From Flavobacterium tegetincola DSM 22377 (GTDB taxonomy: Bacteria > Bacteroidota > Bacteroidia > Flavobacteriales > Flavobacteriaceae), in the NCBI RefSeq assembly GCF_000425485.1, contig NZ_AUDN01000020.1, positions 1-64,000 on the forward strand: a stretch of 64,000 bases of DNA, given 5' to 3'. Below the pieces are notes generated by a model that saw only the letters and a program-made list of their open reading frames with translations, ran no database searches and had not been told where the DNA came from. The position numbers and the translations under genes are program-made. Below, one piece after another: positions 30,820 through 47,584 of this stretch (position 1 is the stretch's first letter; every line of letters begins with the position of its first letter).

Positions 30820-31127
30820 AGTCCTTGCTGTTGTGCTGTTGTTTAGAAAGGAAATACAAAATAGCAGCAATTCTTGAATTTTTTTTTACAAATAATCTCC
30901 GATTAAAAAAAGAATCAAATGATGCAGCGTCGTTGGCTTGAACTAAAAGTAAAGCCATTGCTGGAGACCGCTGGAGCTTCAGTCCTTTAATTCTACGGTA
31001 GATAAGGAGCCACACGACGATTGTTGTGATAATGTGTCGACCCAAATCGTCTAGGACAAAAAATGCCGCGGGAATCAGATTTCCTTAGTCCACGGAGCAA
31101 TTTCCGAATGGCAAGATTACTTTTTGA
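30820..31127. other. Intergenic region, no gene seen
   Basis: This 308-base stretch runs between the amidohydrolase stop and the first unit of the tandem repeat. No coding frame, hairpin or known repeat is evident. Confidence 0.5.
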
Positions 31128-31825
31128 GTTCCAGATCGCGTTTTAAAAAATATACTTTAGTGTATTTTACTTTAGCTTGCAAAAAATTAATAACCGCAAA
31201 TTTCACAAATTAGTGGGTACCCATTACTGTACTATGTGGTACCACATTGTAGACTTTTAGTCTATTTTTAGGTTCCAGATCGCGTTTAAAAAAATATACT
31301 TTAGCGTATTTTACGTTAGCTTTCAAAAATTAAATAACCACAAATTTCACAAATTAGTGGGTACCCATTGCTGTACTATGTGGTACCACCTTGGGGACTT
31401 TCAGACTATTTTTGGTTTCTAGATCGCGTTTTAAAAAATTTGCTTTAGCGTATTTTACGTTAGCTTTCAAAAATTATATAACCGCAAATTTCACAAATTA
31501 GTGGGTACCCATTGCTGTACTATGTGGTACCACCTTGGGGACTTTCAGACTATTTTTGGTTTCTAGATCGCGTTTTAAAAAATTTGCTTTAGCGTATTTT
31601 ACGTTAGCTTTCAAAAATTATATAACCGCAAATTTCACAAATTAGTGAGTACTGATTGCTGTAATTTGTGGTTGGAAATACGTGGTACCACCTTGCAGAC
31701 TTTCAGACTATTTTTGGGTTCCAGATCGCGTTTAAGAAATATACTTTAGCGTTTTTTACTTTAGCTTCCAAAAATTTCATAACCGCAAATTTCACAAATT
31801 AGTGGGTACCCATTGCTGTAATTAA
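31128..31825 (+). repeat. Five tandem ~144-bp repeats containing two palindromes each
   Basis: Units begin at 31128, 31272, 31415, 31559 and 31728 (GTTCCAGATCGCG or GTTTCTAGATCGCG). Spacing is 144, 143, 144 and 169 bp; the fourth unit has an insertion, and the fifth is cut short near 31825. Units 3 and 4 are nearly identical. Each complete unit carries a TTTAGCGTATTTTAC stretch, AACCGCAAATTTCACAAATT, and two 10-bp palindromes, TGGGTACCCA and GTGGTACCAC, about 20 bp apart. No reading frame persists through the units. The array ends about 150 bp before a Xre-type regulator gene. It could be an iteron-like protein-binding array or the relic of a mobile element. Confidence 0.85.
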
Positions 31826-36326: not shown

Positions 36327-36779
36327 ATGGGGCAGTCTTTAGTAAAAAACTACGTACACATAGTCTTTAGCACCAAACATAGGGAAGAATTAATTTATCC
36401 GCCCTACGAACAGGAGTTGCATGCCTATTTGGGAGGTGTCTGTAAAGAGTTAGATTGTGCAGTATTGATAGTTGGTGGCTATACAGACCATGTTCATATA
36501 CTATGTATGTTGTCTAAAAAAATGGCTTTGATGACCTTGGTACAAAAAGTAAAAGCTCATTCTAGTAAATGGATGAAAACGAAAGATAAGAGATTGGAAA
36601 ATTTCTTTTGGCAAGATGGTTATGGAGCATTTTCTGTAAATCCAAGTGAAGTAGATGTTGTGGTAAATTATATTAAGAACCAACATGAGCATCATAGTAA
36701 GAAGGACTTTAAGAAAGAGTATAGAGCATTTTTAAAAAAATATGAAGTTGAATATGACGAACAGTATGTTTGGGATTAA
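36327..36779 (+). CDS. REP-associated tyrosine transposase (RAYT, IS200/Y1 family)
   Basis: This 150-residue single-strand transposase has the Y1 layout: VHIVFSTKHR near the start, the HUH-type metal motif DHVHIL (His55, His57), KAHSSKWM, the FWQDGYGAFSV block and the nucleophile region VVVNYIKNQHEHH (Tyr115), ending ...YDEQYVWD. RAYTs are domesticated relatives of IS200 transposases that mobilise or maintain REP palindromes. Such palindromes lie directly on both sides (36241-36326 and 36787-36870). It interrupts the hsdM-hsdS-hsdR order and starts 3 bp after the hsdS stop, so it may be co-transcribed with the restriction genes. A homologue lies at 44525. Confidence 0.9.
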   Translation: MGQSLVKNYVHIVFSTKHREELIYPPYEQELHAYLGGVCKELDCAVLIVGGYTDHVHILCMLSKKMALMTLVQKVKAHSSKWMKTKDKRLENFFWQDGYGAFSVNPSEVDVVVNYIKNQHEHHSKKDFKKEYRAFLKKYEVEYDEQYVWD

Positions 36780-42918: not shown

Positions 42919-43327
42919 ATTTATTAAGAAGCTTTTCTAAGTAACTTACTTTGTCCTTTTCAGCTTGTAGTAATCTTTCGTATAATTTCTCCTTTTCTTC
43001 AAAAAGTGCCATCATCTTATCTAACGGATTGAAAGTCGGCTGAATATTAATTGCATTGATTGTTGAGGTATCATTACTGGTAAATGTATTAGAAATAATA
43101 TTTACCGCCTGTTCTTCATCAAAATTCTGAAATGCCACTACTGGAATCTTCAAGGAGGTTGAGATTTGCGTAAGGATTGTGGTATCAATCACATCTTTTT
43201 GTTCCAATATAGAGATCTTTTTTTGGTTCCAATCGTCTCCCAGTGCATAAGCCAATGCTTCTTGCTTGATGCCTAGCATTTCTCTGAAACGCTTTACATT
43301 TCTTCCTTGGTGTATTTTTTGTTTCAT
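42917..43327 (-). CDS. Xre-family helix-turn-helix protein
   Basis: This 136-residue regulator has an N-terminal HTH (NVKRFREMLGIKQEALAYAL, DDWNQKKISILEQKD, ILTQISTSLKIPVVAFQNF) at residues 9-70. A Thr/Asn-rich linker leads to a C-terminal coiled coil (MMALFEEKEKLYERLLQAEK) likely used for dimerisation. This architecture is common in Bacteroidota accessory regions. It is a single gene, transcribed toward the tRNA remnant, with the large palindrome array starting about 100 bp upstream. Its target is unknown. Confidence 0.75.
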   Translation of the reverse strand: MKQKIHQGRNVKRFREMLGIKQEALAYALGDDWNQKKISILEQKDVIDTTILTQISTSLKIPVVAFQNFDEEQAVNIISNTFTSNDTSTINAINIQPTFNPLDKMMALFEEKEKLYERLLQAEKDKVSYLEKLLNK

Positions 43328-43429
43328 AACGAATTGTATTTTCTAAAGATTCAAAGATAACGCCATTTGGATTAAAATCTGTGTATCAAAGATAAAAAAA
43401 GATCCACTAAGAAAGCTGGTTTTGTCTAT

Positions 43430-44520
43430 TAAAATAATCGGTTGTTTTTATCAGCTGGAATAAATTCCAGCCCTACAATATGAGGCGAGCCTATGGCTCT
43501 AGAAGGGTTTCGTGTTAGTCTCGTAGAGACGGTGCATTTTGTAGCATCGGATTTTAATACGTTGTAAATAAAAAACGGTGCATTTTGTAGCAATGGATTT
43601 TAATGCGTTATAAATAAAAAATGATGCAATTTGTAGCAATGGATTTTATAATGGGTCGAGCCTACGGCTCTATTTATCTGGTTGTTTTTAACAGCTGGAA
43701 TAAATTCCAGCCCTACAATATGAGGCGAGCCTATGGCTCTAGAAAGGTAACGTGTTAGTCTCGTAGAGACGATGCATTTTGTAGCAACGGATTTCAATCC
43801 GTTGTAAACAAAAAACGAAGCATTTTGTAGCAATGGATTTTATAATGGGTCGAGCCTACAGCTCTAATTATCTGGTTGTTTCTAACATCTGGAATAAATT
43901 CCAGCCCTACAATATGAGGCGAGCCTACGGCTCTAGAATGGTAACGTGTAAGTCTCGTAGAGACGGTGCATTTTGTAGCAATGGATTTCAATCCGTTGTA
44001 AATAAAAAGCGATGCATTTTGTAGCAATGGGTTTTAATGCGTTGTAAATAAAAAATGATGCATTTTGTAGCAATGGGTTTCAATCCGTTGAAAATAAAAA
44101 ACAATGTATTTTGTAGCAACGGATTTTATAATGGGTCGAGCCTACGGCTCTATTTATCTGGTTGTTTCTAACAGCTGGAATAAATTCCAGCCCTACAATA
44201 TGAGGCGAGCCTATGGCTCTAGTAGGGTAACGTGTTAGTCTCGTAGAGACGGTGCATTTTGTAGCAATGGATTTTAATCCGTTGTAAACAAAAAACGATG
44301 CATTTTGTAGCAACGGATTTTAATGCGTTGTAAATAAAAAACGATGCATTTTGTAGCAATGAATTTTAATGCGTTTCAAACAAAAAATGACGTATATTGT
44401 AACAACGGATTTCAATCCGTTGGATATAAAAAACCATGTATAATTTAGCAAGGGATCTCAATCCGTTGAAGATAAAAATAATTATATTTAAGTTCCATAG
44501 GAACGACATATACAAACAAA
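43430..44520 (+). repeat. REP-like palindrome array, left half
   Basis: This dense array mixes two unit types. The short unit (~46 bp) is TGCATTTTGTAGCAACGG followed by ATTTTAATCCGTTG and an A-rich spacer; its core CAACGG...CCGTTG is palindromic, and about fourteen copies lie here. The long unit adds GAGCCTACGGCTC, CAGCTGGAATAAATTCCAGC, CGAGCCTATGGCTC and GTCTCGTAGAGAC, all short palindromes in a fixed order. Long units occur near 43650, 43840 and 44130, with a partial one at 43440. Copies vary in a few bases each. No protein is needed to explain the frames inside. Confidence 0.9.
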
Positions 44521-44524
44521 AATT

Positions 44525-44986
44525 ATGGCAAACACCTATCATCAGCTATACATACAAGTAGTTTTTGCTGTAAAGTATAGAGAAGCAGTGCTTCATAAAG
44601 ATTGGAGAAGAAATGTTTTTGGCGTGATCGGAAATTTAATAAATGAAACGGGCTGCAAAACTATAATTGTAAATGGAGTAGAAGACCATGTACATTGCTT
44701 TTTGGGATTGAAACCAACCGTTTCTATATCTGAATTAATGAAGACAGTAAAAGCAAAATCATCAAAATATATTAATGACAATCGTTTTTTATTAAATCGA
44801 TTTGAATGGCAGGAAGGCTACGGTGCATTTTCATATAATCATTCACAAATAGAAAAAGTGTACAACTATTTAGCGAATCAGGAAGAGCATCATAAGAAAG
44901 AAAATTTTAAAGAAGAATATTTGAATTTTCTAGAAAAATTTGAAATACCCTATGATGAGCGATATATATTTGCCGATTTACAGTAG
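44525..44986 (+). CDS. REP-associated tyrosine transposase (RAYT), centre of the array
   Basis: This 153-residue Y1 transposase is homologous to that at 36327. It shows YIQVVFAVKYRE, the HUH-type motif GVEDHVHCFL (His55, His57), SELMKTVKAKSSKYIN, FEWQEGYGAFSYNHSQIEKV and YNYLANQEEHH (Tyr115), and ends in the same PYDERYIF style. It is intact, with all catalytic residues. Palindrome arrays of about 1 kb lie directly on both sides, and the gene starts only 4 bp after the left array. In known RAYT systems the transposase binds and nicks REPs as single-stranded hairpins, so this is very likely the enzyme that built the array. Confidence 0.93.
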   Translation: MANTYHQLYIQVVFAVKYREAVLHKDWRRNVFGVIGNLINETGCKTIIVNGVEDHVHCFLGLKPTVSISELMKTVKAKSSKYINDNRFLLNRFEWQEGYGAFSYNHSQIEKVYNYLANQEEHHKKENFKEEYLNFLEKFEIPYDERYIFADLQ

Positions 44987-45965
44987 AAACGAAACTACGG
45001 CTCTAGAAGGGTATCGTGTTAGTCTCGTAGAGACGATGCATTTTGTAGCAACGGATTTTAATCCGTTGAAAATAAAAAATGATGCAATTTGTAGCAATGG
45101 ATTTTAATCCGTTGAAAATAAAAAATGATGCAATTTGTAGCAACGGATTTTAATCCGTTGTAAACAAAAAACGATGCAATTTGTAGCAATGGGTTTTATA
45201 ATGGGTCGAGCCTACGGCTCTATTTATCTGGTTGTTTCTAACAGCGGGAATAAATTCCAGCCCTACAATATGAGGCGAGCCTATGGCTCTAGAAAGGTAA
45301 CGTGTAAGTCTCGTAGAGACGATGCATTTTGTAGCAATGGATTTTAATCCGTTGAAAATAAAAAACAATGCATTTTGTAGCAATGGATTTTAATGCGTTG
45401 TAAATAAAGAACGGTTCATTTTGTAGCAATGGGTTTTAATCCGTTGAAAATAAAAATGATGCATTTTGTAGCAACGGATTTTAATCCTTTGAAAATAAAA
45501 AACGGTGCAATTTGTAGCAATGGATTTTAAAATGGGTCGAGCCTACGGCTCTATTTATCTGATTGTTTCTAACAGCTGGAATAAATTCCAGCCCTACAAT
45601 ATGAGGCGAGCCTATGGCTCTAGAAGGGTAACGTGTTAGTCTCGTAGAGACGATGCATTTTGTAGCAACGGATTTTAATCCGTTGTAATTAAAAAACAAT
45701 ACATTTTGTAGCAATGGATTTTAATCCGTTGAAAATTAAAAAGAATGCATTTTGTAGCAATGGATTTTAATCCGTTGAAAATAAAAAACAATGTATTTTG
45801 TGGCAACGTATTTCAATCCGTTGTAAACAAAGAACGATGCATTTTGTAGCAACGGATTTCAATCCGTTGTAATTAAAAAACGATGTATCATGTAATGTCA
45901 AATTTTAATCCGTTGTATATAATGAACGACGCATCTTGTAGCAATGGATTTCAATCTGTCGGAAC
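44987..45965 (+). repeat. REP-like palindrome array, right half
   Basis: The unit types and orientation match the left half. Long units lie near 45200 and 45530, with a partial one at 45000. About fifteen short CAACGG...CCGTTG units are present, increasingly diverged toward 45960 (for example GTCAAATTTTAATCCGTTG). The T/C and G/A changes are often paired so that the stem is kept, although this was checked by eye only. Confidence 0.9.
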
Positions 45966-46060
45966 CTTGAACTTGAGCATAAGAGTGGAATAAGCAATAA
46001 AAATCAAAATAAGTAAACTAAAAATACTAACTTTAAAACGGCAAAATAGGGATTGTATTT

Positions 46061-47584
46061 ATGAAGCAAAAAGTATTTCTTTCTAGTGTTCAGCGTGAGT
46101 TTACCCAAGAGCGGGAAGCGGTGTACCGGCATTTGCTTGTGGATCCGGTCTTGCACTTGTTTTTCGAACCGGTCTTGTTTGAAAAATTACCGGCAAACGG
46201 CACTCAAGCGAGTGCCGTGTATTTGAAAGAAGTGGCACAAGCGGATGTTTTTTTGATCTTAATTGGAACAGATTATGGTTTTGAAACGCCGTCGGGTATT
46301 TCACCTACCGAATTGGAGTACGATCGGGCTCAAGAGCACCAAGTATTTTCATTAGCTTTTATAAAAAACGAAAGTGAGGAAGGACGGCATCCGAAGGAAG
46401 AAATTTTGTTTCATAAAATTCAGAACAATTTATCCTACAAGCGTTTTGGCAGTAGTGCTGAACTGGTTATGGAAGTTACAAAAGCTTTGGTTGCCATTTT
46501 ACAACAAAAAGGCATTTTAAACAGTATTGATTTTGATTCGGAGGTGCATCCTACTGCATCGTTTGAAGCTATTGACGCAGATAAAGTAGCCCATTTTATC
46601 AATTTGGCACGCTACAAAAGAGGTTTTCCGTTGCACGAAGGAACTGCTTTGCCCAAGGTACTTTCGCATTTGAACTTTCTTTCGGAACAGAAAATAACCA
46701 ATTCCGCTTTGTTGGCTTTTGGCACAAATCCGCAACAGTATTTTCCTACAGCAGTGGTGAAGTGTGCTCATTTTCATGGGGTACATGTGGCCAAACCTAT
46801 TCCGGACCATCGTGTTATTAAAGGCGATGTTTTTACACAGGTAGATGAAGCAGTTGATTTTATTTTATCAAAAATTGCACTTGCGGTGGGACTGCGTTCT
46901 GAAAGCAATCAAGCCCCCTTACAATATGAAATTCCAAGAGCCGTTATTGCTGAGGCTATTGTGAATGCGGTGGCACATAGAGATTACCAAAGTAAAGGCA
47001 GTGTGCAACTGATGCTTTTTGCCGATCGTGTTGAAATCAGTAATCCTGGTGCACTTCCGCCAGAACTGACTTTGTATAACTTGAAAAACGACCACGCCTC
47101 GTATCCCAAAAATCCGCATTTAGCAGAAGTGCTTTATCAAGCTGGCTATATTGAACGTTTTGGAACGGGAACGGGGGAAATTTTACGCTTGTGCAAAGAA
47201 GCAGGATTGGTAGAACCTGTATTTGATTTGGGAGCAGGTTTTAAAATTACGATTTGGCGTCCGGAAGTCAGCAGTTCACAAGATAAAAAGAACCGCACCG
47301 ACCAAGTTACCGACCAAGTCACCGATCAAGTTACCGACCAAGTGAACGCGTTGATACAAAGATTGATTTTGATCACCGATCAGGCGTATTCGCGCCATGA
47401 ATTAATGGAGATTTTACAACTGAAGCACAATCCAAATTTTAGAGACAATTATTTGAATCCAGCCATTCAGGAAGGATACTTGTGCATGACGCTACCCAAT
47501 AAACCGAACAGCACCCACCAAAAATACCAATTAACCGAAAAGGGACAGCAATTAAAAACACAGTTAGAAAAGAAAGAGGACTAA
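46061..47584 (+). CDS. DUF4062 protein with ATP-binding domain and C-terminal winged helix (putative defence protein)
   Basis: This 507-residue protein begins with DUF4062, a TIR-like nucleotide-hydrolase fold (KQKVFLSSVQREFTQEREAV, VFLILIGTDYGFETPSG, SPTELEYDRAQ; residues 1-150). A domain like those of AlbA/Schlafen-type ATP-binding regulators follows (LLAFGTNPQQYFP, then a GHKL-type ATPase with AIVNAVAHRDYQSKG, RVEISNPGALPPE and RFGTGTGEILRLC, residues ~280-405). Four TDQV tetrapeptides in a row form a linker to a winged-helix end (SRHELMEILQLKHNP). The family is common in accessory regions; a role in phage defence or stress signalling is plausible but unproven. It stands alone, 95 bp after the palindrome array. 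Confidence 0.8.
   Translation: MKQKVFLSSVQREFTQEREAVYRHLLVDPVLHLFFEPVLFEKLPANGTQASAVYLKEVAQADVFLILIGTDYGFETPSGISPTELEYDRAQEHQVFSLAFIKNESEEGRHPKEEILFHKIQNNLSYKRFGSSAELVMEVTKALVAILQQKGILNSIDFDSEVHPTASFEAIDADKVAHFINLARYKRGFPLHEGTALPKVLSHLNFLSEQKITNSALLAFGTNPQQYFPTAVVKCAHFHGVHVAKPIPDHRVIKGDVFTQVDEAVDFILSKIALAVGLRSESNQAPLQYEIPRAVIAEAIVNAVAHRDYQSKGSVQLMLFADRVEISNPGALPPELTLYNLKNDHASYPKNPHLAEVLYQAGYIERFGTGTGEILRLCKEAGLVEPVFDLGAGFKITIWRPEVSSSQDKKNRTDQVTDQVTDQVTDQVNALIQRLILITDQAYSRHELMEILQLKHNPNFRDNYLNPAIQEGYLCMTLPNKPNSTHQKYQLTEKGQQLKTQLEKKED

Follow-up and report, generated by a model that had tools for sequence, protein, structure and literature searches.

Hairpin arrays enclose a transposase gene, tnpA, in a 64,000-nucleotide (nt) stretch of Flavobacterium tegetincola DSM 22377 (contig NZ_AUDN01000020.1, positions 1 to 64,000; hereafter the window). 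The gene (44525-44986, + strand) is a complete open reading frame (ORF) of 153 amino acids for a Y1 (HUH) single-strand transposase, and the arrays on its two sides span about 43454 to 45961 in our pattern parse. We consider it likely that gene and hairpins together form a repetitive extragenic palindromic (REP)-like system, or "REPtron", whose enzyme is a domesticated subclass-1.2 member of the IS200/IS605-type Y1 transposases.

Results

The transposase

TnpA matches the Pfam Y1_Tnp family (PF01797) with E 2.9e-26 and the NCBIfam IS200/IS605 model with 74.9 bits, above its cut-off of 55, whereas the NCBIfam model for REP-associated tyrosine transposases (RAYTs) gives 21.7 bits, below its cut-off of 80. 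In an alignment of 42 sequences the IS200 model matches all members and the RAYT model 36 (E 0.001). The motifs EDHVH (DHVH), WQEGY (WQ) and YLANQEEHH (Y---Q--HH) are the set given for TnpA_Y1 subclass 1.2; H55, H57, W95, Y115, Q119 and H123 are invariant across the alignment, and Y115 is the putative catalytic tyrosine. There is also a conserved C-terminal stretch (HHKK..FKEEY..FL), which may correspond to the specific domain that follows the core in subclass 1.2. The predicted fold (mean predicted local distance difference test score, pLDDT, 85.6) lies nearest to the TnpA proteins of ISDra2 and IS608 (E about 1e-9), with TnpA_REP (4er8) further away (9e-6); the nearest solved structures are insertion sequence (IS) transposases with end DNA. 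Class 2 (RAYT/TnpA_REP) is defined in PMC6006769 by a Y---NP motif. Judged by sequence, TnpA is a class-1 (IS200-like) protein of subclass 1.2 and not a class-2 RAYT. A preliminary description of this DNA had reported a palindrome array built around a complete RAYT gene; the array and the complete gene are borne out, but the RAYT label, taken strictly, is not supported, and canonical RAYT identity was rejected on the motif and on the two model scores.

The genome holds three tnpA matches in total. The other two are only 40% and 36% identical to TnpA, so that the gene is the sole member of its close clade here, and near-identical copies, a multicopy trait of insertion sequences, were not found in this genome. 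Its nearest named relatives (the best 80 of at least 580) come from Flavobacterium and other Bacteroidota, and Y---Q--HH is kept in 54 of 58 genus sequences and 76 of these 80. Subclass 1.2 is described in PMC6006769 as mostly from Bacteroidetes and Cyanobacteria, low in copy number and not IS-like; the REP entry in its table reads "no", which is a reported trait and not a defining sequence feature.

Anatomy of the array

The parse recognizes 18 short and 36 long hairpins flanking tnpA. Among the long ones, type B1 (CAACGG..CCGTTG type) accounts for 25 full copies (≤5 substitutions) and five halves fused to the next hairpin, and type B2 (GCTGGAATTTATTCCAGC) for six copies (≤2 substitutions); the short ones are seven GTCTC-GTA-GAGAC (A1) and 11 GAGCC-RTA-GGCTC (A2), each with ≤1 substitution. 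A strict scan counted 29 hairpins over 2,070 nt, where 200 first-order Markov resamplings averaged 2.0 (standard deviation, sd, 1.4) and never exceeded 7; the density is 14.0 per kb, compared with 1.2 per kb in the mostly coding window outside 43000-46500. Tandem periods of 46, 194 and 286 nt run through the array; its copies stem from tandem duplication and are therefore not independent events.

Two modules of opposite orientation make up the array. Module I (+ strand) consists of A1, 8 nt, TTGTAG and B1 (CAACGGATT..AATCCGTTG), with one to seven B1 at steps of 45 or 46 nt, degenerate copies counted, and a half B1 at the end of five of the seven copies. Module II (- strand) consists of A2, a spacer, TTGTAGG, B2, a second spacer and A2'. 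Upstream of tnpA a truncated module II (43454-43499; B2 43454-43471, A2 43487-43499) is followed by module I at 43518-43660 (A1 43518-43530, B1 43545-43564 and 43591-43610, half B1 fused to the next A2) and module II at 43658-43739 (A2 43727-43739, B2 43694-43711, A2' 43658-43670). Three further copies of module I lie at 43758-43854 (A1, one B1, half B1), 43952-44140 (A1, three B1, half B1) and 44238-44468 (A1 and five B1), the last ending 56 nt before tnpA, and complete copies of module II (A2, B2, A2') at 43852-43933 and 44138-44219. Shortly 3' of the tnpA stop codon the sequence holds a truncated A2 remnant (44994-45003, - strand). Beyond it, module I recurs at 45022-45210 (A1, three B1, half B1), 45308-45541 (A1, four B1, half B1) and 45639-45961 (A1 and seven B1, the last two degenerate), and the complete module II at 45208-45289 and 45539-45620. 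With four forward modules upstream against three downstream, and one to seven long hairpins in each, the symmetry proposed in the preliminary description is only a loose one.

The 5' flank TTTTGTAG next to the B1 stem is 88-100% conserved among 24 full units, on a par with the stem; TTGTAG itself belonged to the search pattern, with ≤5 substitutions tolerated. In the same units one loop base is conserved at 67% and parts of the outer flanks at 50-79%, and the stem has variable positions at 54% (C/T) and 75%. The earlier view that stems are kept and loops and flanks vary is thus right only in part, for one loop base and parts of the outer flanks; it does not fit the TTTTGTAG flank, which is kept, nor two stem positions, which vary. 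Across loci foot and spacing are constant and stems differ.

As single-stranded DNA, 45022-45068 is predicted to fold into hairpin A, an open TTTTGTAG linker and hairpin B (z -4.89; 0 of 200 shuffles as good), and its opposite (-) strand nearly equally well (z -4.60). The - strand of 44138-44232, which includes the module II at 44138-44219, is predicted to form three hairpins (z -3.25).

Covariation in the short hairpin

We picked 129 long-hairpin (B) units, one place being counted twice, by their own sequence and blind to the short hairpin. At 84 of them the fixed position upstream carries a short hairpin with four or five of its five pairs Watson-Crick, in 33 distinct versions with the stems ATTCC/GGAAT, GTTCC/GGAAC, GTCTC/GAGAC, ATCCC/GGGAT, GAGCC/GGCTC, GTCCT/AGGAC and others. 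The remaining 45 units include second and later tandem B copies, which have no short hairpin before them. In 66 distinct rows 191 of 330 cells are Watson-Crick, compared with 124 (sd 7.6, maximum 146) when the 3' arms were shuffled. The short hairpin, then, shows covariation.

Association of units with the tnpA clade

The unit pattern (≤2 mismatches) and tnpA were tabulated in 299 same-genus genomes from the best tnpA matches and the first unit places per genome, and the following counts are among the matches listed. Units occur in 43 of the 48 genomes with the close tnpA clade (two of them, G278 and G066, placed there from fragments), in 13 of 64 with only other subclass-1.2 hits (E up to 1e-40) and in 19 of 187 with neither tnpA type (Fisher 1e-13 and 2e-26 for the clade against the two other groups). 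Unit totals in the three groups are 435, 49 and 46, and a reversed-pattern control gave 0 in all 299 genomes. Three genomes that lack a tnpA of the close clade, G217, G295 and G161, carry 16, 8 and 6 units, respectively; these may be remnants or be used by another tnpA.

Pairs of loci were also compared for shared 10-mers around their hairpins (above 2%; pairs without hairpins omitted, and the tandem pair in locus L068 counted among other-genome pairs). Between different genomes, 129 of 168 pairs with at least 65% protein identity shared 10-mers, against 79 of 1,425 below 65%; within the same genome the counts were 2 of 2 and 3 of 58, respectively. The repeats thus track the protein more than the host genome. 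Conserved chromosomal position may mean that flanks are shared by descent, so that the figure of 129 of 168 is to be read as inflated.

Dispersal in relatives

In this genome the modules have increased in number at the tnpA locus only. A unit search (≤3 mismatches) gave 23 matches, all 23 inside the array, in a draft assembly of 41 contigs where collapsed repeats are possible elsewhere; the left array (43440-44520) found its best other match in the genome at E = 0.012. This is the genome-wide count that the preliminary description had called for, and for this genome it does not support the proposal of an active source of REP spread. Two observations had been named there as counting against the idea, namely no units elsewhere in the genome and identical arrays in distant strains; the former is what we found, but the arrays of related species are not identical.

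Relatives differ in this respect. Among 61 same-genus genomes searched (≤3 mismatches; zero matches for the reversed pattern), 31 units were found in G042 and 61 in G052, scattered across the chromosome or contigs. In 20 fetched stretches (18 from G042, one each from G010 and G052) 40 of 41 units lie outside ORFs of at least 100 amino acids. The A-spacer-TTGTAG-B order of this array recurs at the 11 single-unit G042 sites inspected: a short hairpin (not always perfect) precedes TTGTAG, and the long hairpin and a second short hairpin follow it. Such sites often adjoin an oppositely oriented module with other stems. At one G042 site the flanks align on both sides, close up to the site, in three other genomes. 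The length between the aligned flanks is 177-183 nt in G042, 64 in G006 and 69 in G015, as taken from BLAST coordinates; a MAFFT alignment placed the gaps poorly. At the same site G008 (locus L208) has 220 nt with another long inverted repeat (TTTCGAGCGGAGTCGAGAAAT type).

Taken together, the clade association, the intergenic dispersal in relatives and the occupied/empty site agree with the earlier suggestion that the palindromes behave as REPs cognate to tnpA. As regards REP traits, GT[AG]G at the 5' hairpin foot is present as TTGTAG directly before the long hairpin, a feature of the clade, and dispersed intergenic copies are present in G042 and G052 and not in this genome.

Hairpins at other subclass-1.2 loci

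Two sets of subclass-1.2 loci were surveyed, with near regions taken as intergenic sequence within 600 nt of the gene: a genus set of 58 loci from 26 same-genus genomes, and a named set of 80 loci, the best 80 of at least 580 relatives. The sets have no near region in common at 95% identity over 300 nt; two genus locus pairs (L068 twice; L102 and L103) are 95% identical near the gene. Near-gene intergenic hairpins number 9.9 per kb, against 2.7 far from the gene, in the genus set, where this and the later far values are raised by the window's own array because the window holds two tnpA genes, and 11.0 against 2.2 per kb in the named set. At least two near hairpins are present at 49 of 58 genus and 74 of 80 named loci. 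With repeated hairpins counted once, near exceeds far at 53 of 55 and 47 of 51 comparable loci, respectively. The "no REP" trait reported for the subclass does not agree with the flanking hairpins here or with the excess at the 58 genus and 80 named loci.

Many of these hairpins share a GNA triloop, a loop type described as very stable in DNA (PMC6479982, citing Yoshizawa 1997). GNA makes up 105 of 175 distinct triloops near the gene against 10 of 33 far from it in the named set, and 61 of 115 against 18 of 55 in the genus set; in the named set 197 of 206 GNA loops are closed by C-G. When named-set triloops were oriented by GNA alone, the flanks (167 units, 58 loci) showed A at -1 (0.94), G at +1 (0.84) and A at +2 (0.68), locus-weighted, followed by a T-rich tail with T/A favoured at +11/+12 (0.51, 0.60). 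The flank signal of the genus set is weaker (A 0.68, G 0.56; 84 units, 34 loci). Of the 80 named loci 52, and of the 55 genus loci 20, have at least one A-hairpin-G unit. Among GNA-oriented units, orientation towards tnpA, on both sides of the gene, is commoner than orientation away from it (60 of 90 in the genus set, 126 of 206 in the named set). A GTAG foot universal to subclass-1.2 loci was considered and rejected; feet appear to differ by clade.

Another subclass-1.2 tnpA, at loci L100, L101, L104 and L105, has CCTCCAGAT/CCAACATCT hairpins with a TTGAATTG-like foot. It apparently occupies the same chromosomal place in several species, suggesting vertical retention, beside genes that, read by eye, are putative cobalamin genes.

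Other features of the window

A second subclass-1.2 tnpA, about 40% identical to the first, lies at 36327-36779. It has an hsdS-like gene (Pfam Methylase_S) on one side and an hsdR-like gene (Pfam ResIII and EcoEI_R_C) on the other, and inspection by eye shows other small palindromes next to it (CCCTGAAAGGG, GGACGTAGTCC and GGACTTCGTCC). At locus L053 (G022:C1:2890600-2907100) an 87% identical tnpA and its array adjoin HsdM and HsdR homologues of a type I restriction-modification system. A link with type I restriction-modification, hinted at by these two loci, was rejected, since no more than 4 of the 80 named loci and 1 of 54 loci in the genus set have homologues of the window's Hsd genes. 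A tRNA-linked insertion was likewise rejected, since ARAGORN found no tRNA gene in the window. Elsewhere, about five units, each 144-157 nt long, are repeated in tandem at 31121-31823, and 47296-47343 is a 12-nt in-frame tandem repeat (TDQV repeats) within the ORF at 46061-47584, whose domains are DUF4062, HATPase_c_4 and a Fic-like C-terminal part.

Discussion

In the repeat module a 5-bp hairpin, whose 3-nt loop is often GNA and closed by C-G, is separated by 8 nt, in most cases starting with G, from TTGTAG and a longer hairpin; relatives add a second short hairpin. We propose that such modules would form their hairpins in single-stranded DNA such as the lagging-strand template, and that TnpA would bind these hairpins in the way that the TnpA proteins of IS608 and ISDra2 recognize the ends of their elements. 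In IS608/ISDra2 and TnpA_REP a tetranucleotide 5' of the hairpin acts as a guide and the cut falls at a nearby dinucleotide (PMC8266576). By analogy, the TTGTAG foot between the two hairpins may be the guide or cut region, and by cutting and rejoining the strand TnpA could carry modules to new intergenic sites or duplicate them in tandem. Recombination between modules would then account for tandem growth, and rare transfer for dispersed copies. We infer the strand, the cut site and the chemistry of TnpA action from this comparison.

The system resembles several known ones. With TnpA_Y1 subclass 1.2, as characterized in PMC6006769, it shares DHVH, WQ and Y---Q--HH, a length of about 150 amino acids, divergent low-copy paralogues and close named relatives in Bacteroidota; the table there gives REP as "no", whereas here loci of the subclass have flanking hairpin units and one clade has a matching dispersed repeat family. 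Like class-2 REP/RAYT REPtrons it combines a GTAG foot beside a palindrome with a cognate transposase, intergenic copies dispersed in relatives and inverted modules similar to bacterial interspersed mosaic elements (BIMEs), but the enzyme is of class 1, short and long hairpins are joined in a composite unit, the local tandem array is large and there is no dispersal in this genome. IS200/IS605 ends (IS608, ISDra2) share the fold and, by analogy (PMC8266576), hairpins that may have a guide or cut region close by; here, however, hairpins are present in many copies instead of two ends, and no gene-carrying mobile unit was seen. The GTAG-/CGTC-tagged palindromes of PMC3733652 also bear GTAG at one palindrome end and are known in tandem groups; unlike them, the module here has two hairpins, and Bacteroidetes are mentioned once in that text, for the CGTC type. 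We found no report of repeats for subclass 1.2 in open-licence PMC papers, closed-access papers and preprints lying outside the search.

Other explanations were weighed against these data. The most serious, though improbable, is that tandem hairpins grew by slippage beside an unrelated gene and act, if at all, only at transcript ends or in mRNA stability. The 46-, 194- and 286-nt periods and the local confinement of copies in this genome agree with it, as do 13 terminator-like sites in the region against 1.8 expected, 12 of which are + strand array hairpins with weak T tails (the terminator, promoter and hairpin scans being consensus or mechanical scans). It does not explain why the repeat type tracks the protein clade across genomes, why at least two near hairpins are found at 123 of 138 subclass-1.2 loci, or why near exceeds far at 100 of 106 comparable loci. 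Even so, the array hairpins may have another role as well, at transcript ends. A structured non-coding RNA from the array is the least probable explanation and a highly improbable one. The wobble cells of the B1 units (43545-45961) do fall mostly to one strand, the non-Watson-Crick cells being 17 G-T, 3 A-C and 11 others on the + strand, but a single recurrent position accounts for 13 of the 17 wobbles, Rfam gave no match up to E 0.1, and promoter-like sites are fewer than in shuffles (6 against 11.7). That recurrent position is a C-to-T change, and the units of L053 show it too.

Two explanations concern the enzyme itself. An ordinary IS200/IS605 insertion sequence with tandemly duplicated ends would fit the class-1 protein, the solved structures nearest to it and the hairpins on both sides of tnpA; we regard it as very unlikely in view of the lack of near-identical copies in this genome, where the other matches are so divergent. 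Marginally less probable still is a canonical class-2 RAYT (TnpA_REP) with its own, unusually amplified REPs. The GTAG at the palindrome foot, the flanking repeats, the dispersed copies in relatives and the weak NCBIfam RAYT match, seen also in 36 of 42 relatives, would suit it. The motif test largely refutes it, and both the RAYT score, far under its cut-off while the IS200 model passes, and the closer fold similarity to ISDra2/IS608 than to TnpA_REP argue in the same direction.

The proposal of a REP-like system on a subclass-1.2 transposase should nonetheless be interpreted with some caution, since several observations weigh against it. Dispersed unit copies are absent from this genome, a draft in 41 contigs, and plain slippage could explain the tandem growth. 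The occupied/empty site is unpolarised, so that gain in G042 and loss elsewhere both fit. Among the matches listed, 5 of 48 clade genomes lack the pattern and 32 of 251 others carry it; moreover, same-genus genomes are not independent, and the counts include units beside tnpA itself. Nine genus loci out of 58, and six named loci out of 80, have at most one near hairpin. In the named set the A-hairpin-GA context marks 57% of 105 near hairpins, yet 5 of 10 far intergenic hairpins have it too, as does 1 of 15 in coding sequence; the genus-set figures are 36% of 61 near, 4 of 18 far intergenic (three from the window) and 2 of 11 coding hairpins. The TTGTAG foot is a feature of this clade and not of all subclass-1.2 loci, with GTAG outside the 25 commonest feet at genus loci, and a GNA loop is present in just 16 of the 33 distinct short-hairpin versions. 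Single-stranded folding favours neither strand, and 12 array sites resemble terminators.

On balance, and with rather less confidence than for the F. tegetincola system itself, we favour the wider view that a second branch of single-strand transposases, the subclass-1.2 Y1 proteins of Bacteroidota and neighbouring groups, has been domesticated independently. Each clade would have a cognate hairpin family that follows a shared unit logic (in order, A; a short stem whose loop is C-GNA-G; GA; about 10 nt; TA), with stems and tails diverging by clade. The role of subclass 1.2 had been open, as it was described as neither IS-like nor REP-bearing, and REP elements were previously tied to class-2 RAYTs. 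Our data suggest that this branch of enzymes, previously regarded as repeat-free, has matching repeats in many Bacteroidota.

In conclusion, the matching repeat family gives subclass 1.2 a substrate that can be tested in vitro, and the enzyme-hairpin pairs, with their different stems, feet and tails, offer a natural series for studying how specificity evolves. IS200-type transposases may have been recruited into REP systems by domestication on more than one occasion; if the second-branch view is true, it puts REP-type systems on both sides of the split between class 1 and class 2.

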